A stretch of 43,390 nucleotides of DNA. Source: Anaerolineales bacterium. GTDB lineage: Bacteria; Chloroflexota; Anaerolineae; Anaerolineales; E44-bin32. The notes below the pieces were generated by a model that did no database searches, was not told the DNA's origin, and worked only from the letters and a program-made list of their open reading frames with translations. The position numbers were made by a program, and so were the translations under genes. Position 1 is the stretch's first letter; the number at the start of each line of letters is the position of its first letter. Location: assembly GCA_037382465.1 (NCBI GenBank), contig JARRPX010000052.1:1-43390 (forward strand), in the 5' to 3' direction. Positions 16,984 to 41,090 of the stretch are shown piece after piece.

Positions 16984-18660
16984 TCACCCTTCCCCGACCA
17001 AATACGTAAACAACCCAGCCATTTCCGCAAACAAATCGCGGTATTTATTATAATCGGTCTCAGGTGCGGCGAAATCAAGATGGTATTGGAAATCCTGTCC
17101 GACGAAGATGAATTCGATGTGACTCTCAGTTTCCAATTCACCTTTCACCGTACGGTCGTAGAGGAATTCCACCACACCTACGTCACGGCCGTTGATCCTG
17201 CGCGTGGTATAGGCGATCGCTCGATATTCCGGCTGCAGCGATAGATCGTCGCTCAAGTCCTCGGCATACTGCCTGGCTCCTTTGCCTTCGGCAAGATCGT
17301 ACACGCTTACCGTCAATTCAGGACAGGATTGATCCTCGCGGCAAACGGCACTCAGCCCCACGCGCCGTAAATCCTGATTCCAAACTCCTGCGGACCATTC
17401 ACGCGGGTAGCGGACGACGAAAAAGGTTTCGTCCTGTACGTAATCGATCATGGCCGCATTGGTACGGTCCACGCTTCCCAGCACAATCGCCTGATTAAGG
17501 GAAGCTAACAGAGTGGCGCGATCTACGGCAGCGGCCTGAAAATCTCGCACGCGAACCTCGGCGTGAAGACTGCGTTCGGCTCGTCCTAGAGTAAGACTGA
17601 CAAGCCGTCCGCTGTCGGCATCCATCTCTATCACAACACGATCAAGCGCCTGTCCGGTGCTCGTTGCGGTATAACGCCCTTGCCGCTCGTATGCTCGCCA
17701 ACTGGCAGCCTGCAGCTCCGCCGGCAGGCTGAACGCCGCTTCCGGTAGAGCAGAGTCCAGGACGCTGGTCAGGTCTTCACGACTCACCTTGTTCACACGT
17801 CCGTTGTCATAATCCGTGTAATAATTACCGTCGATCACCCAGATGTTACTCTCGCTGCGGATCGGTTCGCCAGGAACGGCGTGCAGATGCACCTCGAGGT
17901 GATAATCATCCCCCACACGCGTCACCGTGTAGTCGCGCACGAGATCGCCGTTGTCGTTCGTCGTCTGGTATTGGTAGTTTACGCGGCTGGCCGATTTTGC
18001 TGCGAGCAGTGCATGATCGGCTTTCTCCGCCACGCCGATTCCCAGACCATCCATGAACCGATCGGTCCCCACGCTGAAGGTTGCGCGTGGGGATAAAAAC
18101 GGCGCCAGAAAACTGATCAGCACGACCAGGATCACCGTCATCAGTAAAAAACCGATCACGTTCGGCATGATGAGTTGCCTCGGTTCAGCGAAGCTATTGG
18201 CAAGCAGCGTTCCCACCAGATACAAACCGACCAGGGCGGCCATGTCCAGGATCACGATGTGAATATAGACCGCATTGGGGTCGTACCCGACCAATACGCT
18301 GAGCATGAGTACAATTGGTGCGGTAACGAGCATGATCATGGCTACAGTCACTATCAGGGTCAACGGGATAGCCGTCACCTGAGACGGCTTTTCCTCGCGA
18401 CCGAGCAAACGGAACGTCACCCAGAAGATGGGGACGGACAACAACAAGCCAAAAGCGACGATCAAGGCGACCTTGAACGCATCTTTCAAGGCCGTGTCCG
18501 TGCCAATGCCGATGCCCATGGCGAATCCATACACCGCCCCACCGAAAAGGGAGAATAGAAAAGCGGCCAGGATAAATCCCTTCAAGGATCGCCCTTCCTT
18601 TATCGTGCTCACCAGGCCGCGTTGGCGAAAAATTCCGAAAAGTGATTTTAAGACATTCAT
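16984..18660 (-). CDS. Membrane protein with extracytoplasmic lipoprotein-like and PsbP-like domains
   Basis: The ATG at 18660 overlaps the stop of the upstream gene (ATGA), so it is translationally coupled and the better start than the in-frame ATG 18 bp earlier. The 558-residue product has five or six membrane helices in the first 200 residues, separated by short loops and resembling a Yip1-type or similar small membrane domain. The rest is soluble: a middle domain at about 215-400 with DYTVTRVGDDYHLEVHL and the repeated pattern IWVIDGNYYTDYD, which looks like an LppX/LolA-like lipid-binding style fold, then a C-terminal PsbP-like region (YVQDETFFVVRYPREWSAG, then RINGRDVGVVEFLYD). I do not recognise the whole protein. 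It is the last gene of a three-gene operon. Confidence 0.75.
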   Translation of the reverse strand: MNVLKSLFGIFRQRGLVSTIKEGRSLKGFILAAFLFSLFGGAVYGFAMGIGIGTDTALKDAFKVALIVAFGLLLSVPIFWVTFRLLGREEKPSQVTAIPLTLIVTVAMIMLVTAPIVLMLSVLVGYDPNAVYIHIVILDMAALVGLYLVGTLLANSFAEPRQLIMPNVIGFLLMTVILVVLISFLAPFLSPRATFSVGTDRFMDGLGIGVAEKADHALLAAKSASRVNYQYQTTNDNGDLVRDYTVTRVGDDYHLEVHLHAVPGEPIRSESNIWVIDGNYYTDYDNGRVNKVSREDLTSVLDSALPEAAFSLPAELQAASWRAYERQGRYTATSTGQALDRVVIEMDADSGRLVSLTLGRAERSLHAEVRVRDFQAAAVDRATLLASLNQAIVLGSVDRTNAAMIDYVQDETFFVVRYPREWSAGVWNQDLRRVGLSAVCREDQSCPELTVSVYDLAEGKGARQYAEDLSDDLSLQPEYRAIAYTTRRINGRDVGVVEFLYDRTVKGELETESHIEFIFVGQDFQYHLDFAAPETDYNKYRDLFAEMAGLFTYLVGEG

Positions 18661-21521
18661 TCTTCCCACTCCCTCCATGTTTTCGTAAACCGTTCACGAG
18701 TGGCAAGCAATTGCTCGCGTTTGGACAAAGCCAGCAACCCGCCTCCGAACAGGATTCCGCCTGTTAATCCGATCTGGACCCAGCGTGATAAATCTACGAA
18801 ACCAGCACCGAGCTGCACGATGACGTTAGCCAGAAACGCAATCGATCCGTAACGCACGTAGTTACGGGAGCGTTTGCGGACGCCCCACACAATCGCCACA
18901 ACACTCTCGATGGCGAGCAACAATGTGTATCCAATTGCGCCGCGCGGCAGGGACTGCAGGAACGTCGATCCCAGTAACAGGATCAACCCCAATCTTGTCA
19001 CCCAATTGTACGTGGTTTGTTTCCCGCGCCTGCGTTCATTCCAACCCCCGAATAAAAGCGCCAACCCGAGCGGCAGGATATACGCCTGCGGTTCATCCAC
19101 CTCGAAAGCCATCAGCACGGACCAAAGCACGAGCAAGAATGACATGCCGCCGACGTACGCTTGGTAGACCGATTTGCGCCTGGCGGCGTCCGCCGAATAG
19201 GTTACCCCGGCGATGGCAAAGGTCGCCGCGGCAATGATCGGCTCGTAATCGTAAACTGCAATCCAGATCGAAGCGGCCACGGGAATCAACATTAAGCCCA
19301 AACCCGTGCGACGAAGTGGATCCGCGTAAATCTTTACGCTCTCTTCACTCCGTAATAACCAGGCCACACCCACGAAGAGTAAACAAACGCCCGCCGTGTA
19401 CATCGGGCCGACTTGGTCGTAGTCCACGTTCAACTCTTCGAGCAGGAAAAAGTGACCGATAAAAACCACCAGGAGACCTAAATAGGTGAGCAAATGCGGC
19501 AGCTTGCGCTTCTGAAATTCGGAGCGTTCCAGCCAGGCGAAGGTCAAGAGCAGAATAGACGACACCAGCGACATTCCTATTGCCATGTAGTAATCATCAA
19601 CCATCGCGGTACCATAGGCCGCCAACAAATCCAACGACGCGACGATGTATAACGGCCATCCCCAGCCCTCATGATCCCTACGCCGTAAAGCGTATCCCAC
19701 CATCACCAGAACGACGCCAAGTGCTGCGTAGGAAATTTCGAACACTTGCGTCGGCGTTTTCCAATCGTAAATCGCATTGTGGGCGGCGTGCAGACAAAGA
19801 TTCGATGCCAGCAGCATGGGATAGAGCAGCCACGGCACCTCGAGCCACAGGGCTACGAGGAAGTACACCACGGCGATAACGGCCAGTGCAATGCTGTTAA
19901 TCACGGGAGTTTCGTAAGTCAGCACGGCGCTGATGATGCTCAGCAGCGCGGCGGCGCTGAGGAAGGGCATGCCGTGCCGCAATTGACGCCTGCCGAGGGC
20001 GTAGCCGATGACGGTGTAATTCAGACCGAGTAAACCCATGATCAAGCCGCTGTCGGATTCATCGCCGACGTACCAGGCGAGCAGCAGCCATACGGGCAAG
20101 ATGAACAACCAGACCGCGCCGTACACCCAGCGAAAATCGCGGTGAACCACAGCCGAAATGGCCAGGATGACCACGTCGACGAAGAGCACGATTGCCAGGT
20201 CCAATTCGTTCCCGGCTGCGGATAACGTAACCACCAGCGCCACCGCATAAGCCGCAGCATAAAGCGGCCAACCCGCGGCGCGCAATCCCTCAGCTTGTTC
20301 CAGGCGATAGCCTATGCCCATGTATGCCAGAGCGAGAATCATCAACGTGGCAGCCATGGCAATATCGCTGGCATTCAACTCTACCAGGAGTAAATACGTC
20401 GTCACCGGGACGAGTACCGCTGCCGCCCAGCGCGCCGCAATCCATTTATAAAGCACGTTACTGATGGCATAGAACAAAGCACCCACAGCGACGCAAATAA
20501 CAGGCAGCCAGGGAACGATAGGCGCACACCGGCTGCAGCCGGAATAATCCGACCAAAGGGCGAGGGCAAATACAATGGCCAAAGGCATACCGATTTGGGA
20601 CACGTATCGAAGCGGATCGTACGTATAACTGGCCGTAGAAGATGATTTTGCGCGATAGGAAAGCAGCATGATCAAGGTCAACAGCAGGCCGGAAGCAAGC
20701 GGCGTAAATGTAATATGGGCATCGAACACTTTCAGCGCCGCAGCCAGCGTGCTCCCCACAGCACCGATACTGATGTAGATAAAAAGATCTGCCTTTGTCC
20801 AGCGGGCAGTGATCACGTAGGCGCAGAAACAAATCGGCGATGCGATCAGCCACATCACGTCATCTCGTAGACCTGCCGGTCCCACCACGTAGTGCTGCAG
20901 CACGGCGAAGTTGAGTGCCAGGAATCCCGAGGCCAAACCAAGCAGGGCGACGCCGGCAATGCGATATGCTTCACTTTGGAATAATACAAAGCCACCGAGA
21001 TACGTCAATCCCGTGATCATCAGCGTAATCGCAAATTTCGCCGGCCCGGGAATGCGGCCCCAATTCACGCCGACGAAAATCGCTCCGGCGATGAAGAGCA
21101 GGAAGCCGCCAATGTAAAGCGCGATCTTGATGTTGCGCTCGCTGAGCAGCCATTGGTCGAAGGGCACGCTCTCCTTGGCGGGTTCAGGTGCAGACACCGA
21201 TGCGGAGGCAGATGTGGAAGCAGCATTTGCTGAAACCATCCGCGCAGGTGCCGCGGCCGCTTTTTCCGACACCGCAGGCGTCGGTTCGACGGCCGGCTCT
21301 TCCATTGGGGCGCCGCGACGCAGCCGTTCACGCAGAGTTTTCAAGCGGTTGACGTACGAGTTGCGATATGTGGCAACCCCCGGCCATCCGCGGGTTCTCT
21401 CCACCAGATACTCCAGCTGGTACAGTTCGAGCAAGTCCTCGGAGGCAAACGCTTCCCCGCAAACGCGGCATTTCTTTACCACCTTTTCCAGACCCGGAGT
21501 TCCGCAGTTCGGGCACTTCAT
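18657..21521 (-). CDS. Zinc-ribbon protein with about two dozen membrane helices
   Basis: The start at 21521 has AAGGAG 6 bp upstream and directly opens a zinc ribbon with two CxxC pairs (CPNC and CRVC, residues 3-21). A helix, a Pro/Ala/Ser linker at about 75-120 and then some 24 hydrophobic segments fill the rest of the 954 residues, with short charged loops (for example RYVSQIGMPLAIVFALALW). The build resembles the SCO7613-type and DUF2157-type giant membrane proteins of Actinobacteria and Chloroflexota, whose role is unknown. The cytoplasmic ribbon could bind protein or nucleic acid. The stop overlaps the next start and the previous stop is 14 bp away, so all three proteins are likely made together and may form a membrane complex. 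Confidence 0.82.
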   Translation of the reverse strand: MKCPNCGTPGLEKVVKKCRVCGEAFASEDLLELYQLEYLVERTRGWPGVATYRNSYVNRLKTLRERLRRGAPMEEPAVEPTPAVSEKAAAAPARMVSANAASTSASASVSAPEPAKESVPFDQWLLSERNIKIALYIGGFLLFIAGAIFVGVNWGRIPGPAKFAITLMITGLTYLGGFVLFQSEAYRIAGVALLGLASGFLALNFAVLQHYVVGPAGLRDDVMWLIASPICFCAYVITARWTKADLFIYISIGAVGSTLAAALKVFDAHITFTPLASGLLLTLIMLLSYRAKSSSTASYTYDPLRYVSQIGMPLAIVFALALWSDYSGCSRCAPIVPWLPVICVAVGALFYAISNVLYKWIAARWAAAVLVPVTTYLLLVELNASDIAMAATLMILALAYMGIGYRLEQAEGLRAAGWPLYAAAYAVALVVTLSAAGNELDLAIVLFVDVVILAISAVVHRDFRWVYGAVWLFILPVWLLLAWYVGDESDSGLIMGLLGLNYTVIGYALGRRQLRHGMPFLSAAALLSIISAVLTYETPVINSIALAVIAVVYFLVALWLEVPWLLYPMLLASNLCLHAAHNAIYDWKTPTQVFEISYAALGVVLVMVGYALRRRDHEGWGWPLYIVASLDLLAAYGTAMVDDYYMAIGMSLVSSILLLTFAWLERSEFQKRKLPHLLTYLGLLVVFIGHFFLLEELNVDYDQVGPMYTAGVCLLFVGVAWLLRSEESVKIYADPLRRTGLGLMLIPVAASIWIAVYDYEPIIAAATFAIAGVTYSADAARRKSVYQAYVGGMSFLLVLWSVLMAFEVDEPQAYILPLGLALLFGGWNERRRGKQTTYNWVTRLGLILLLGSTFLQSLPRGAIGYTLLLAIESVVAIVWGVRKRSRNYVRYGSIAFLANVIVQLGAGFVDLSRWVQIGLTGGILFGGGLLALSKREQLLATRERFTKTWREWEE

Positions 21522-21535
21522 GGCCGACTCCTTCC

Positions 21536-22144
21536 TCAAAGTGTCTCCACCATACCGAGCGCTTCAAGCTCCGCGAGCGCCTTTTTGCGCTGCTCACGTG
21601 ATCGCCCGAAACGGATGGCGTAGACCAGATCCTTCGTTTGTTTGCCAATATCGATTACTTCCTTCTCCCCCTCCACGGCCGTCAGAATCGCCTTGGCTTG
21701 ATCTCGGGTAAACCATCGCAGTGTACTGCAGTCACCGCGGGCAGCCTGCCGCTGACCCCAGATGGTCCCGAAGAGCCACACGACGATCAGGAAGGGAATG
21801 GCGTTTAGCAGCGCGTACTCGTCTGTCATGATGACCGCGATCAATAATGGGATAGCGGTGCGTACTCCAGCGAGCAGTAAAGCCTGCCGGCCGTGCCAGC
21901 GTACGAACGGTCTCTCCTTGTCCAGGGCCGGTTTGAGCAGGATCAAATGCCACATCGCTGAGGCGGCGACGGCGATAACATTCGTCATTTGGGCGACGAT
22001 CCACCAGGTACATCCCTCATAACTTGAGCCGCACACCAATCTATATCCCGGGTCACTGAAGTAAACCCAGAGCAGTGTGGGGATCGTAAGCACGGGTGAC
22101 AACCACAGCCAGCGATACCACATGCGAGCTTCAGGGATTTGCAT
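21536..22144 (-). CDS. Unknown four-helix membrane protein, first gene of operon
   Basis: The 202-residue protein has four membrane helices at about residues 9-28, 45-68, 88-108 and 113-132 (for instance MTNVIAVAASAMWHLIL) and a basic cytoplasmic tail. The first half looks like a DUF4870-type or similar tetraspan protein; the tail includes DQAKAILTAVEGEKEVI and ends in a helix with EQRKKALAELEALGMVETL, like a small helical repeat. Four Cys lie in the first two thirds, two of them in a loop (VCGSSYEGC) that could form a disulfide on the outside. I do not recognise a function. GGAAAGGCGG precedes the ATG. Confidence 0.75.
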   Translation of the reverse strand: MQIPEARMWYRWLWLSPVLTIPTLLWVYFSDPGYRLVCGSSYEGCTWWIVAQMTNVIAVAASAMWHLILLKPALDKERPFVRWHGRQALLLAGVRTAIPLLIAVIMTDEYALLNAIPFLIVVWLFGTIWGQRQAARGDCSTLRWFTRDQAKAILTAVEGEKEVIDIGKQTKDLVYAIRFGRSREQRKKALAELEALGMVETL

Positions 22145-36702: not shown

Positions 36703-37449
36703 TTAAGACTCCGCCTTCATCGTTCGGGCATCCTTTGCCAGGAGGTGCAGCCCGAAAAGACCGAGCAGTAAAACGGTCAATCCCAACAGCTGCACACTGC
36801 GTACGCCGCCGAATACGATCTCGCTGTCTCCCCGAAACGCTTCCAGGAACACACGGCCGGCGGCGGACGCGGCGATGAATGTGAGGAACAGAAACCCGGG
36901 AAAAGGAGCCGCGAGCTTGAGCCGGCTGACGATCCAGAACACCAGCAAGGCGGCCGCGATCTCGTACACCTGTGACGGATGCCGCTCGGCGCCCCACAAC
37001 CGCAGCGCCCAGGGCAGCGAGGTCGGTGCACCGTACGCATCGCCGCTGGCGAGGTGGGATAATCCGACGAAGATAGAAAACAGCGCCAGGCCGGGCGTGA
37101 ATGCATCCAGCGTCGACCACAACGGCAATTCCCTGCGCTGGGCGTAGATCAACGCTGCGATCGAACCGACGAGCAGCCCGTCTCCCAGCGACATCGTGCT
37201 GGTATTCAGTGAGAAAACGTCCGGCAGGGCGTTCACGTAGGCATCGATGTGACTCAAGACGTACCCCAGTCGCGCGCCCAAGACGCCCCCGATCAAGCCG
37301 ATGAAGACCAGATTGTTGAGCGTGCTGGCGGAGAGGCTCCTACGGCCGGCTTCCCGGTCGATGGTCAACGTGGCCAGCCAAACGCCACCGATAAGTAAAA
37401 GCCCCGGCAGCGGTAATGCCAGAGGCCCAAGGTTCACGATCGGAAGCAT
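36703..37449 (-). CDS. Lgt-like membrane protein lacking the catalytic His and Arg motifs
   Basis: The 248-residue product has seven membrane helices and clear relation to prolipoprotein diacylglyceryl transferase: GARLGYVLSH matches GRIGYVLFY of the E. coli enzyme, and ERHPSQVYEIAAAL matches GHPSQLYE. Yet the essential His103 of MSFHGGL is lost (here MSLGDGLLVG), and the signature RIGNFING containing Arg143 reads GLSHLASGDAYG. Arg239 may be kept in EAFRGD. Normal lipoprotein modification by this protein is therefore unlikely, even though six lipoproteins are encoded nearby; a canonical lgt should exist elsewhere. The start overlaps the TlpA stop by one base (TAATG), so the two are translated together. 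Confidence 0.8.
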   Translation of the reverse strand: MLPIVNLGPLALPLPGLLLIGGVWLATLTIDREAGRRSLSASTLNNLVFIGLIGGVLGARLGYVLSHIDAYVNALPDVFSLNTSTMSLGDGLLVGSIAALIYAQRRELPLWSTLDAFTPGLALFSIFVGLSHLASGDAYGAPTSLPWALRLWGAERHPSQVYEIAAALLVFWIVSRLKLAAPFPGFLFLTFIAASAAGRVFLEAFRGDSEIVFGGVRSVQLLGLTVLLLGLFGLHLLAKDARTMKAES

Positions 37450-38051
37450 TACTGCGCCTCCTCGAGCAAGTCCATCACGATGCTTCGAAGCGTGGCCTCG
37501 TTCAACGGCCCACCGATGATCACCCGGCGGATGACGCCGCCCGGATCGACGAAGTAGGTGCTCGGCAAGGCGCGCATCCCGTACGACCTCGCCACCTCAC
37601 CGCTGCGGTCGAAGGCAATGGGAAACGTCAGCCCGAGCTCGTCGGCAAAGTCGATCGCTTCCGCCGCCGAATCCTGATCGGTCATGTTCACTCCGAGCAC
37701 GACCAGATCCTGCGCGGCGAATTCCTCGTAAAGCGCCTGAAGCGCAGGCATCTCCGCACGGCACGGAGGGCACCAGGATGCCCACAAATTGACCACGACG
37801 ACGCGGCCGCGGAGCGCAGCCAGCGATACGGCTGCGCCGTCGAGCGTGTCGAGTTCGAAATCCGGCGCCAAAAAACCTTCCTGCGGACTCGCGATCCCCG
37901 CGCTGGAAATTTCCGCATCGGAGACCATCGATGCGCCTGTCCAGGCCATGCCCAGCAACATCACCAAGGCCGTGAAGGCCGTCCAGCGCTTTCGGTCCCG
38001 CATGAAGGGGACGATGCGCTGCATCGTGGAATGCATGCCTGCTTTTCTCAC
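37449..38051 (-). CDS. TlpA-like membrane-anchored thioredoxin
   Basis: The 200-residue protein has a short cytoplasmic start, one membrane anchor (WTAFTALVMLLGMAW) and an extracytoplasmic thioredoxin-like domain of the TlpA/ResA/redoxin class: PDFELDTLDG, RGRVVVVNLWASWCPPCRAE with the active pair Cys94-Cys97, FPIAFDRSGEVARSYGMRALPSTYFVDPGG with the cis-Pro. It reduces or forms disulfides in exported proteins, often in cytochrome c or copper-centre maturation. The start is a GTG at 38051; an ATG at 38036 is possible. It lies 56 bp after cbiO and overlaps the Lgt-like gene, so it is part of the metal-importer run. A CcdA/DsbD electron donor is not in the window; the Lgt-like protein could be the membrane partner. 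Confidence 0.88.
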   Translation of the reverse strand: MRKAGMHSTMQRIVPFMRDRKRWTAFTALVMLLGMAWTGASMVSDAEISSAGIASPQEGFLAPDFELDTLDGAAVSLAALRGRVVVVNLWASWCPPCRAEMPALQALYEEFAAQDLVVLGVNMTDQDSAAEAIDFADELGLTFPIAFDRSGEVARSYGMRALPSTYFVDPGGVIRRVIIGGPLNEATLRSIVMDLLEEAQ

Positions 38052-38107: not shown

Positions 38108-38818
38108 TCAAGGCGCTTCCAGACCATGCTGCGCCAACAAATCTCGATCCGTCATCAGCGATTGGGTCGACCCATCGTAGACGATCTCTCCCTCATCGAT
38201 CACCACGGTGCGCTCGAACAACTCGGCCACCATGGGGATATCGTGCGTAGAAACGAGCATGGTTTGCGGCAGAACATGCAGCAAATGGATCAAACTGCGG
38301 CGAGCGCGCGGATCCAACCCCGCAGTCGGTTCATCGAGCACCAGGATTTCCGGATCCATCGAAAGGACGGTGGCGATGGCCACGCGCTTCTTCTCGCCGC
38401 CGCTGAGATGGTGGCAGACCCGATCACTGTAGCCGCGCAGTTCCACCGCTTCGAGAGCTCGCTGCACGCGCGCCCGCACGTCGGCCTCGGGCAATCCCAT
38501 GTACAGCGGTCCGAAGGCGACGTCGTCGAACACCGTTGGTGAAAACAGCTGATCGTCCGGATCTTGAAAGACCAACCCCACGGAGGATCGAATTTCACCC
38601 AACGTGCGTTCTTCAACGAGCGTCCCGCAGACGCGGACTTCTCCCCGGTCTCTGAGAATGCCGTTGAGATGCAGCATGAGCGTCGATTTGCCCGCGCCGT
38701 TGGGGCCGACGAGTGCGACCTTTTCGCCGGGCGCAATGTAGAAGCTCACGCCGCGCAATGCGGCGCGTCCATCCGGATACGTAAACTGCAGATCACGTAC
38801 TTCGATCGTGTGATGCAT
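38108..38818 (-). CDS. cbiO: ECF cobalt/nickel transporter ATPase CbiO/NikO
   Basis: This 236-residue ABC ATPase energises import by the CbiM/CbiQ membrane parts. Walker A is GPNGAGKST (38-46), the Q-loop FQDPDDQLFSPTV is the form typical of ECF and CbiO ATPases, the signature is LSGGE (138-142), Walker B is ILVLDEP (158-164), followed by STHD. The start at 38818 lies 3 bp after the cbiQ stop with a weak ribosome site, so coupling is likely. ECF ATPases of this subgroup serve Co or Ni; the fused PDGLE domain in the upstream CbiM-like gene and the Nur-like operator favour nickel, but sequence alone does not settle the metal. Confidence 0.94.
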   Translation of the reverse strand: MHHTIEVRDLQFTYPDGRAALRGVSFYIAPGEKVALVGPNGAGKSTLMLHLNGILRDRGEVRVCGTLVEERTLGEIRSSVGLVFQDPDDQLFSPTVFDDVAFGPLYMGLPEADVRARVQRALEAVELRGYSDRVCHHLSGGEKKRVAIATVLSMDPEILVLDEPTAGLDPRARRSLIHLLHVLPQTMLVSTHDIPMVAELFERTVVIDEGEIVYDGSTQSLMTDRDLLAQHGLEAP

Positions 38819-38821
38819 TGC

Positions 38822-39607
38822 TCAAACCATCCAATCTACGCTCAACGGGACGATCAGCAGCAAACCGACCGTCACGAGCGAAATCCAATCCTTGGCGCGC
38901 ATATGAAAATGAGTCAACGAGCGCATCTGACCGTCGTAGCCACGGGACAGCATGGCCGCATAGACCCGCTCACTGCGTTCGATCGCTCGCAGGAAAAGGC
39001 TGCCCACCATGGCGCCGGCGGTCCTTCCCTGCCAGAGAAGCGATCGACGACGACTGCCCGGAACGCGTGCACTGCGAGATGCGCGCGCCCGCATCATGCG
39101 GGTTGCCTCGTCGGCCAAGACGAAGAGATAGCGGTACATGAAGCCGATCGTCGAAACCAATACGCGCGGAAAGCGAAGCGACCCCAATGCCCAGAGGAGA
39201 TCCTGGAATTGGGTAACCGCCGTCAGCAGGATCGCCGCCTGAACGGCCAGCCAACTGCGCGCCAGGATGCTCAGGAAGCGGATCAAACCCGGCTCGCTAA
39301 CCCCCCAGTTCAACCCCGGAATCCGCCAGATCACCTGACCCGGCGAAGTGAACGGCACGGCGAGGGCGGCGAGCACGAAAGGCAGTACGATGAACGACCT
39401 GCGGATCGTGAAGAATATACCCAATCGCGTGAGAAATGTAGCCAGGAGCAAAAGCAGGAAGAAAAAAGCGAACGCCCACCACGTGCCTTCCGGCGTCAGG
39501 CTGACGGCCAGGATGTAACCAAACGCCGCCAGCAGCTTCACGCGCGGATCCAGGCGATGCAGGAAACTCGGCTGCAATCGGTAAAGGTCTGTGAGATGGT
39601 AGTGCAA
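38822..39607 (-). CDS. cbiQ: ECF cobalt/nickel transporter transmembrane protein CbiQ/NikQ
   Basis: The 261-residue protein is the T-component of the importer. It has the HRLDPRVKLLAAFGYI motif near the N-terminus, four to five membrane helices, and the two coupling motifs, best seen as RARASRSARVPG (with the Ala-Arg-Gly type surroundings) and ERSERVYAAMLSRGYDG (the A-R-G motif near residue 215). It starts at a TTG (39607) three bases beyond the cbiM stop, where GGGGATTG serves as ribosome site. Gene order M-Q-O is the common one for nickel and cobalt systems. Confidence 0.93.
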   Translation of the reverse strand: MHYHLTDLYRLQPSFLHRLDPRVKLLAAFGYILAVSLTPEGTWWAFAFFFLLLLLATFLTRLGIFFTIRRSFIVLPFVLAALAVPFTSPGQVIWRIPGLNWGVSEPGLIRFLSILARSWLAVQAAILLTAVTQFQDLLWALGSLRFPRVLVSTIGFMYRYLFVLADEATRMMRARASRSARVPGSRRRSLLWQGRTAGAMVGSLFLRAIERSERVYAAMLSRGYDGQMRSLTHFHMRAKDWISLVTVGLLLIVPLSVDWMV

Positions 39608-39610
39608 GGA

Positions 39611-40570
39611 TCAATCCCCTGCGGCTTCACTCCGTGTGGTGTTCCGTCCCACAAACCATGCTACCATAAATACCAGCAGTGTACCCAAGGCGACCGCTAC
39701 GATCGTCGTCAGAACGGGGTGGGCGATGAAAGGTACGGTGTAATCCGGCAGGATCGAATAAGTCGGATCGAGTGCGCGGTCGAGAAATCCGTTTTGTTCG
39801 GCGACGAATTCGAGGCCATCCGGGGACGCGGAAGCCAGCGGTGAGAACAAGGCCACGATCAGAGCCACGAGCAAACCTGCGGCGATAATGTTGGCGCTGC
39901 GGCGGCCAGGCGCGTTTTCACCTTCTACGAGCAAGCCGTTCGAAGCCTTTTGCAATAAAACCAGCGCCCCGACGGTGATCAAACCCTCACCGACTCCGAT
40001 CAAGGCATGCACGCCCGCCATCGCCGGCAGTCCCAATTGAATCGGCGAGGTGCCTGAGACCGCCAACTGCAGGGCAGTGGCCAGAGCGGCCACTTCCACG
40101 GAAAGCCAGGCGCCGGTAAACGCGGCGGCCAGGCGAGAACGCGTACTGTCCCCCGTCACGCGACGCACGAACGAATACGTCGCGTAACCGACGAAAGCGG
40201 TCAACACACCCATGTTGATGATGTTCCAACCCATCACCAGCAGGCCGCCGTCTTGAAACAGAAGCCCTTGCATGGCGATGACCGCCGTCATGATCAGCGT
40301 CGCGGCCCACGGGCCCAAAAGAATGGCCGCCAACGCACCGCCCAGGAGATGCCCCGATGTGCCTGCGGCGATGGGAAAATTGATCGCCTGTGCGGCGAAA
40401 ATGAACGCCGCCAGGATGCCCATCAGCGGGACCTGCCGGTCGCCCAGTTGATTCTTCGTCTGGCGAATCGCAACCGAAATGAACACGAACGCGAGCGCCC
40501 AGCCGACGACGGCTACAGGCGTAGAAAGGAAACCGTCCGGAATGTGCAGTAGATGGGGTGATAACCACAT
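39611..40570 (-). CDS. cbiM: ECF cobalt/nickel transporter substrate component CbiM/NikM with PDGLE domain
   Basis: The 319-residue S-component begins LLHIPDGFLS, in which the His two before the Pro-Asp is part of the metal-binding N-terminal site (normally MHIPDG at residue 1-2; here there are eight extra residues ahead, MWLSPHLL, so the ATG might lie differently). NFPIAAGTSGHLLGGALAA is the conserved loop with the metal-site His. About seven helices follow, then at residues 225-319 the PDGLE domain (SPDGLEFVAE, plus one helix), as in NikMN-type fusions, replacing a separate CbiN. GAGGAGG precedes the ATG by about 11 bp. The gene is 25 bp after the fur stop. Confidence 0.94.
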   Translation of the reverse strand: MWLSPHLLHIPDGFLSTPVAVVGWALAFVFISVAIRQTKNQLGDRQVPLMGILAAFIFAAQAINFPIAAGTSGHLLGGALAAILLGPWAATLIMTAVIAMQGLLFQDGGLLVMGWNIINMGVLTAFVGYATYSFVRRVTGDSTRSRLAAAFTGAWLSVEVAALATALQLAVSGTSPIQLGLPAMAGVHALIGVGEGLITVGALVLLQKASNGLLVEGENAPGRRSANIIAAGLLVALIVALFSPLASASPDGLEFVAEQNGFLDRALDPTYSILPDYTVPFIAHPVLTTIVAVALGTLLVFMVAWFVGRNTTRSEAAGD

Positions 40571-40595: not shown

Positions 40596-41027
40596 TTAAC
40601 CTTCGCCCCGGCAAGCGGCGCAAAGGCCAAACAACGTCAGGTGATTGGGATTGACGGAGAAATCTGTTTCCGCAGAAACGTTCTGAACGATCCGGTCGAG
40701 AACCTCCGGATCGACGTCGAAAACGGCGTGGCATTGTTGACAAACCAGGTGGCCGTGTGGATTGCAGGGATCGCGCAGCGCAAAAAGAGACGGGTTGGAA
40801 CCATCGTTGAAGAGATCGATCATCCCTGCTTCGTGCAGGGACTCGAGCGTACGATATACCGTTGCCAGGTTCAAACCCGGCAATTTTCGCCGCGCATCGG
40901 AGTATATGTCTTGGGCACAAAGATGCCCCGATTTGTGCGCGATGGTCTCCAGGATCACGGTGCGCTGCGGGGTCACCCGATAACCCTTCGATCGAAGATC
41001 GTTCGCCAGCCTCTCACCACACGACAT
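40596..41027 (-). CDS. Fur-family metalloregulator (Nur-like by context)
   Basis: The ATG at 41027 has AAGGA 7 bp upstream; the frame is open further but not supported. The 143-residue protein has the winged helix with GYRVTPQRTVILETIAH and LNLATVYRTLESLHEAG, a metal site region (HGHLVCQQC and HAVFDV) and both structural zinc CxxC pairs (Cys96/99 and Cys136/139). Fur, Zur, Nur, Mur and PerR cannot be told apart by such short reading, but it heads the nickel/cobalt importer genes, and its promoter carries two dyads of the Nur-box type. The likely logic is repression of its own operon by metal-loaded protein. Confidence 0.92.
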   Translation of the reverse strand: MSCGERLANDLRSKGYRVTPQRTVILETIAHKSGHLCAQDIYSDARRKLPGLNLATVYRTLESLHEAGMIDLFNDGSNPSLFALRDPCNPHGHLVCQQCHAVFDVDPEVLDRIVQNVSAETDFSVNPNHLTLFGLCAACRGEG

Positions 41028-41029
41028 AC

Positions 41030-41090
41030 GCAAATCCTTGCAGTTGCAAAAATTTGCATATAGAATATCATCCTCAACCCGGCAGGTCAA
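41030..41090 (-). promoter_or_regulatory. fur-cbiMQO promoter with two GCAA-N4-TTGC dyads
   Basis: On the minus strand TTGACC (41085-41090) and TATTCT (41062-41067) are spaced by 17 bp. Just downstream lie two dyads: GCAAAAATTTGC (41046-41057), part of the longer TGCAAA-AA-TTTGCA at 41045-41058, and GCAAATCCTTGC (41030-41041), centres 16 bp apart. Both fit GCAA-N4-TTGC and cover the start of transcription and the ribosome site of fur. The Nur box of Streptomyces is tTGCaa-N5-ttGCAA, the same arms with one base more between. Confidence 0.75.

Follow-up and report, generated by a model that had tools for sequence, protein, structure and literature searches.

What do two dyads of the same form do at the promoter of a Fur-family gene, and to which metal would such a switch respond? 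We addressed these questions for a locus in the contig of an Anaerolineales bacterium analyzed here, the whole 43,390-nucleotide stretch of which is referred to as the window. Our comparisons indicate that the dyads are probably the paired operator of the adjacent Nur-like Fur protein, which would act as a nickel-corepressed autorepressor of a nikMQO-type importer.

The locus and its paired dyad

The features of the locus, with the basis of each assignment in parentheses, are as follows.

41085 to 41090, minus strand: −35 hexamer TTGACC (exact sequence)
41062 to 41067, minus strand: −10 hexamer TATTCT, 17-bp spacer from the −35 hexamer (exact sequence)
41046 to 41057, no strand assigned: distal operator box GCAA-N4-TTGC, predicted (sequence; conserved in relatives)
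41030 to 41041, no strand assigned: proximal operator box GCAA-N4-TTGC, predicted (sequence; 28-bp pair unique in the genome)
41035 to 41039, minus strand: Shine-Dalgarno AAGGA of the Fur gene (sequence; 7 nt before the ATG)
40596 to 41027, minus strand: predicted Fur-family repressor gene, 143 aa, Nur-like (PF01475, residues, 3EYY match)
39611 to 40570, minus strand: CbiM/NikM S-component fused to a PDGLE domain (PF01891, 4e-61, and PF13190)
38822 to 39607, minus strand: CbiQ/NikQ ECF T-component (PF02361; TIGR02454 above cut-off)
38108 to 38818, minus strand: CbiO/NikO ECF ATPase (PF00005; TIGR01166 above cut-off)

Read along the minus strand, the promoter TTGACC-N17-TATTCT (41090..41062) is followed by 4 bp, the distal dyad, another 4 bp, the proximal dyad, the dinucleotide GT, and the ATG of the Fur gene (41027). 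The initial annotation had proposed this consensus-spaced promoter and, downstream of it, two GCAA-N4-TTGC dyads 16 bp apart from center to center; the promoter and both dyads proved to be exact. On the plus strand, the proximal dyad (41030-41041) reads GCAAATCCTTGC and the distal dyad (41046-41057) reads GCAAAAATTTGC, while on the minus strand the distal dyad (41057..41046) is GCAAATTTTTGC and the proximal dyad (41041..41030) is GCAAGGATTTGC. The proximal dyad thus ends 2 bp before the ATG, and the AAGGA, the likely ribosome site, falls inside it.

Pfam and NCBIfam confirmed the gene assignments made beforehand, i.e., Fur, CbiM-PDGLE, CbiQ, and CbiO. Fur heads the operon Fur-CbiM/PDGLE-CbiQ-CbiO, whose genes are tightly spaced, and CbiM, CbiQ, and CbiO together make up an ECF nickel/cobalt importer (Nik/CbiMQO). 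The CbiM reading frame starts with MWLSPHLLHIPDG (40550-40570), and the usual N-terminal Met-His is absent. This Met-His of NikM/CbiM binds metal; the usual CbiM metal site would require a CTG start or N-terminal processing here. Downstream of cbiO, on the same strand and after a 56-bp gap, a TlpA/ResA-like thioredoxin gene and an Lgt-like gene (36703-38051) may be part of the operon transcript. Control of the divergent citrate synthase gene by the box was also considered and was rejected on position alone, the box lying ~175 bp upstream of its ATG.

One GCAAN4TTGC alone is not remarkable, as about one is expected per window; the window contains three against an expectation of 0.86, a count equaled in 7 of 100 shuffles. 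The third copy, which is of the kind expected by chance, is located at 18703-18714 within a minus-strand open reading frame (18657-21539), toward its 3′ end. The spaced 28-bp pair, on the other hand, occurs once without mismatch in the 3.73-Mb genome, where ~0.0015 exact matches are expected (scaled from the counts at up to three mismatches). At up to three mismatches, the whole genome contained 19 matches versus 24 for the reversed-pattern control; the next best copy had two mismatches, and there was no excess over the control. Thus, no further regulon genes can be claimed from the pair in this genome.

Recurrence of the box in Chloroflexota

In a first conservation scan of 400 Chloroflexota genomes, carried out with a pattern fixed beforehand, the exact 28-bp pair was present in four genomes, one of which is the window genome. 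All three exact pairs outside the window genome have a Fur gene on one side and a NicO/NiCoT-like gene on the other (Pfam NicO scores of 324 bits at L002, 48 bits at L004, and a sub-threshold 23 bits at L003). When one mismatch was allowed, the pair was found in 38 of the 400 genomes compared to 8 for the control; seven further sites adjoin Fur genes, several of them also with CbiM or CbiQ. We also searched 84,980 species genomes of bacteria and archaea for GCAAN4TTGC-WNNW-GCAAN4TTGC, in which the W positions were derived from the first Chloroflexota sites. The output comprised 72 loci, 13 assigned to Chloroflexota by the title of the record or by an identity already known and 59 in other genomes, and the pair adjoins a Fur gene at 9 of the 13 Chloroflexota loci versus none of the 59 others (Fisher, 8e-9). 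At the four Chloroflexota loci without an adjoining Fur gene (L103, L116, L120, and L134), the site falls within unrelated coding sequence or at its border, and these were taken as chance occurrences.

An unbiased sample was obtained from the best 30 CbiM loci over 201 Chloroflexota genomes, picked without regard to the box. Seventeen of these loci are Fur-linked, and 15 Fur-linked cases with enough upstream sequence, the window being left out, served as the promoter test set. An exact GCAAN4TTGC was present within 150 bp in 8 of the 15 CbiM-linked Fur promoters versus 0.10 expected, and a copy with at most one mismatch was present in 12 of 15 versus 1.6 expected; the remaining three promoters had no box even at one mismatch. 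Hence GCAA-N4-TTGC, single or paired, recurs in related Chloroflexota near nickel/cobalt importer genes with a Fur gene, the recurrence that the initial annotation had proposed to look for. Operons that keep the proteins and have lost the dyads are not the rule, with some CbiM-linked Fur genes lacking a clear box.

Among 39 distinct NiCo-linked Furs, a set that includes loci first found by the box, the GCAA-TTGC spacer was N4 in 27 and N5 in 3. Relatives of the same order usually carry a single TTGCAA-N4-TTGCAA directly after the −10 hexamer and running into the Shine-Dalgarno sequence. At loci with a readable promoter, the box either starts 4 to 12 bp after the −10 hexamer or covers the −35 hexamer, which is the geometry of a repressor. 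Taken together, these comparisons indicate that the dyads are almost certainly a regulatory DNA switch and that it recurs beside nickel/cobalt importers across Chloroflexota. A compact variant, GCAAAGTTTTGCAACTGGTTGC, was observed upstream of Fur and beside CbiM at L018 (genome G506), where two boxes 10 bp apart share a TTGCAA.

The Fur-family protein and its metal

The protein encoded directly behind the dyads has the hallmarks of the Fur superfamily, namely, a Fur domain (PF01475, 4.4e-25, 88.6 bits versus a cut-off of 23.1) and two CxxC structural-zinc motifs, CQQC and CAAC, with cysteines at the equivalents of positions 93, 96, 133, and 136. For the nickel-responsive Nur of Streptomyces coelicolor (3EYY), the metal-site residue numbers used here rest in part on the review PMC7055735 and the aligned 3EYY sequence. 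In the window Fur, H129 corresponds to the Ni-site residue His126, which in Nur precedes the conserved Gly of G-x-C-x-x-C by five residues. Reference Fur, Zur, and PerR proteins have their histidine one residue earlier, at 125, where the window protein has Asn. His126 is present in 33 of 35 box-Furs and in all 12 other NiCo-linked Furs, compared to 6 of the 27 remaining Furs (7 if one protein with both histidines is counted), and it thus distinguishes the groups independently of any tree.

Two other Ni-site residues of Nur, His70 and His72, are Leu and Asn in the window Fur. Among the box-Furs, His70, His72, and His126 are kept together only in L003, L004, and L064, and no other solved structure comes close to Nur as a match for the L003 protein (7.7e-37 versus 6e-21 for the next one). 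At the M-site, His33, His88, and His90 are kept (H35, H91, and H93), and His86 is replaced by Asn. As the protein lacks His70, His72, and His86, we did not file it as Nur. The initial annotation had called it a Nur-type autoregulator of a nickel importer with a box one base shorter than that of Nur. Its Nur-like character is borne out by His126 and the box arms, and the box does recur with Fur and nickel/cobalt importers, with N4 dominant; the protein is not, however, a clear Nur orthologue, as it lacks two of the three Ni-site histidines and one M-site histidine and has no settled place in the tree.

With regard to the metal, the strongest alternative keeps the same operator and autorepressor and makes cobalt both corepressor and cargo. 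CbiM and NicO families carry either metal, Pfam and NCBIfam name these genes cobalt transporters, and several genomes with the box (G395, G114) have none of the nickel enzymes searched for. Nonetheless, six indirect results favor nickel, and we consider cobalt unlikely. The window genome encodes the large subunit of a NiFe hydrogenase (757 bits) as well as a Ni-CODH (606 bits); PF00374 matches of ~70 bits, found in many genomes and probably complex I subunits, were not counted as NiFe hydrogenases, and urease gave no match over the cut-off. The closest solved structure to the window CbiM is 4M58 (4.5e-27, versus 2e-11 for the CbiM structure 5X3X). 4M58 is titled CbiM in the PDB, and we take it to be the nickel transporter NikM2 and 5X3X to be the cobalt CbiM; the S-component would then be closest to a nickel protein. 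Besides the six results, His126 is common to Nur and the window Fur.

CbiC was found neither in the window genome nor in 18 of 20 surveyed genomes that have this box or one closely related to it. These genomes are thus unlikely to make corrins de novo and would have little need of free cobalt for that purpose. Only G029 and G121 depart from this pattern; each encodes an additional CbiM beside cbiC, apart from the box-and-Fur locus, and this copy carries no box but does carry a cobalamin riboswitch (68 and 72 bits). The riboswitch was of use as a sorter of CbiM loci only in these two genomes, since none was detected at the 30 sampled CbiM loci, at box loci, or in the window. Ni-SOD was found in just 3 of the 20 genomes, the same three whose box-Fur keeps His70, His72, and His126. 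In Streptomyces, Nur controls SODs, and the occurrence of Ni-SOD with a full Ni-site box-Fur recalls this control.

A Zur- or Fur-type regulator of zinc or iron with an unusual box is slightly less likely again. The window protein is the only Fur-family gene product found in its genome (G000, 95% complete), and for this reason may respond to a further metal as well; iron and zinc could be under other regulators there. Its best solved match is Fur 9IRE (4.9e-24), slightly above S. coelicolor Nur 3EYY (2.4e-22), and some boxes precede a gene for a ZnuA-like binding protein. Against these points stand, besides the shift of the histidine from 125 to 126, the linkage to CbiMQO where a Zur would show znuABC linkage and His at 125, and the Fur paralogues adjoining ZnuA-type genes in the same genomes, which are Zur-like and have no box. 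Furthermore, in a tree built from 81 proteins, every box-bearing Fur falls on the Nur side, and the Fur, Zur, and PerR references lie opposite with most box-less paralogues, with weak support for the deep branches (26/83). A 43-row clade that contains Nur (support 80/93) leaves out the window protein, which forms a long unplaced branch.

The predicted switch, its precedents, and candidate importers

We infer that the Fur protein binds the boxes with nickel as corepressor and represses transcription, the two dimers acting jointly. When nickel is sufficient, metal-loaded Fur dimers would occupy both boxes immediately after the −10 hexamer, covering the transcription start as well as the ribosome site, and would block initiation of the fur-nikM(cbiM)PDGLE-nikQ-nikO transcript. 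With 16 bp between box centers, the dimers would be offset by roughly one and a half helical turns. When nickel is short, Fur would leave the DNA, and both the nickel importer and the repressor would be produced. The predicted result is negative autoregulation plus a shut-off of import.

The pair could instead act in RNA, as a 16-bp leader hairpin that sequesters the Shine-Dalgarno sequence and controls fur translation, with the DNA symmetry a by-product. Together with its flanks, the pair could indeed fold in this manner over the Shine-Dalgarno sequence (−23.5 kcal/mol, z of −3.9). Across 22 sites, however, there is no co-conservation of the spacer positions needed for a longer stem (30 of 88 Watson-Crick, near chance), whereas the box arms are nearly invariant; several relatives have their best-scoring promoter placed such that the box is over the −35 hexamer, upstream of the transcription start, and relatives of the same order usually carry one box. 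We thus regard an RNA element as very improbable and the DNA operator as the preferred reading. That the dyads are functionless chance occurrences is hardly credible: one GCAAN4TTGC per window is about what chance predicts, but fixed-pattern conservation, Fur adjacency, the unbiased sample, the spacer histogram, and the reversed-pattern control refute chance statistically and, as far as sequence comparison can tell, mark the operator as real.

How does the predicted switch compare with known systems? The consensus of the Nur box is tTGCaa-N5-ttGCAA (PMC3919588), as the initial annotation had it. The window Fur resembles Nur in the Fur fold, the two CxxC motifs, His126, and M-site residues His33, His88, and His90, and the two systems share the TTGCAA/GCAA-TTGC arms, a box over the promoter, and, as predicted here, regulation of nickel import. 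Unlike that of Nur, the box in the window has an N4 rather than an N5 spacer, and in Chloroflexota it is often paired at 16 bp; the window Fur lacks His70, His72, and His86 and lies within its own operon, with an ECF-type NikMQO instead of NikABCDE; and boxes of relatives precede NicO, FmdE-FecBCD, and ZnuA-like systems. NikR-regulated nikMNQO operons likewise place an ECF nickel importer under a repressor, as we predict here, but NikR is a ribbon-helix-helix protein with another box, whereas the protein here belongs to the Fur family. Autoregulated Zur/znuABC loci also have a Fur-family metal-uptake repressor adjoining its importer; they differ in the box and in the His at 125 rather than 126, and Zur-like paralogues of the same genomes are without the window-type box. 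Finally, cobalamin-riboswitch-controlled cbiMNQO operons encode the same transporter family, but the Fur-linked copies have no riboswitch, which is restricted to the cbiC-linked copies of G029 and G121.

One survey of nickel and cobalt utilization, in which Chloroflexi are covered, gives NikR as the nickel regulator and leaves Nur unmentioned (PMC2667541). Within the openly accessible literature, neither a Nur-type regulator nor the present box came to light as described for Chloroflexota, and no nickel-sensing Fur-family member besides Nur, which is characterized in Streptomyces, turned up in the literature searched. Our results put a Nur-like system with a putative operator in several Chloroflexota classes. 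Because His126, as opposed to His125, is tied to the nickel-linked branch, it could serve as an annotation rule by which genes called Fur, PerR, or Zur by default are re-called. The findings also open a route to identifying the nickel importers of uncultured Chloroflexota, Dehalococcoides-like genomes among them, and the natural series in which His126 is kept while His70 and His72 vary makes nickel selection by Fur proteins testable.

A wider proposal, to which we give a little less than an even chance, is a phylum-wide Chloroflexota nickel regulon governed by a Nur-like Fur branch through the one-base-shorter, often doubled box. If true, the regulon would extend beyond NikMQO and NicO permeases to two kinds of importer that are not known to take up nickel, an FmdE/TrmO-linked FecBCD-type ABC system (L125 and L229) and a ZnuA-like ABC system (L051, L052, and L124), as candidate importers of nickel, possibly chelated nickel.

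At L125 and L229, the paired box stands upstream of FmdE-family genes, whose products combine FmdE with a dksA/traR zinc finger. FmdE, TrmO, and FecCD genes follow it at L125 (5823-8000), and genes for FmdE, a binding protein, a permease, and an ATPase follow it at L229 (5465-9170), which belongs to a 1.5-Mb genome (G048) and has a perfect TTGACA-N17-TATAAT directly upstream of the box. The ZnuA-like binding protein (PF01297) is encoded under the box at L051 (2043-2876), L052 (81-971), and L124 (5308-6267). All three proteins have an Asn, within GNWM, at the position of an expected metal ligand that in ZnuA is presumably His, and their sequences suggest that the metal may not be zinc.
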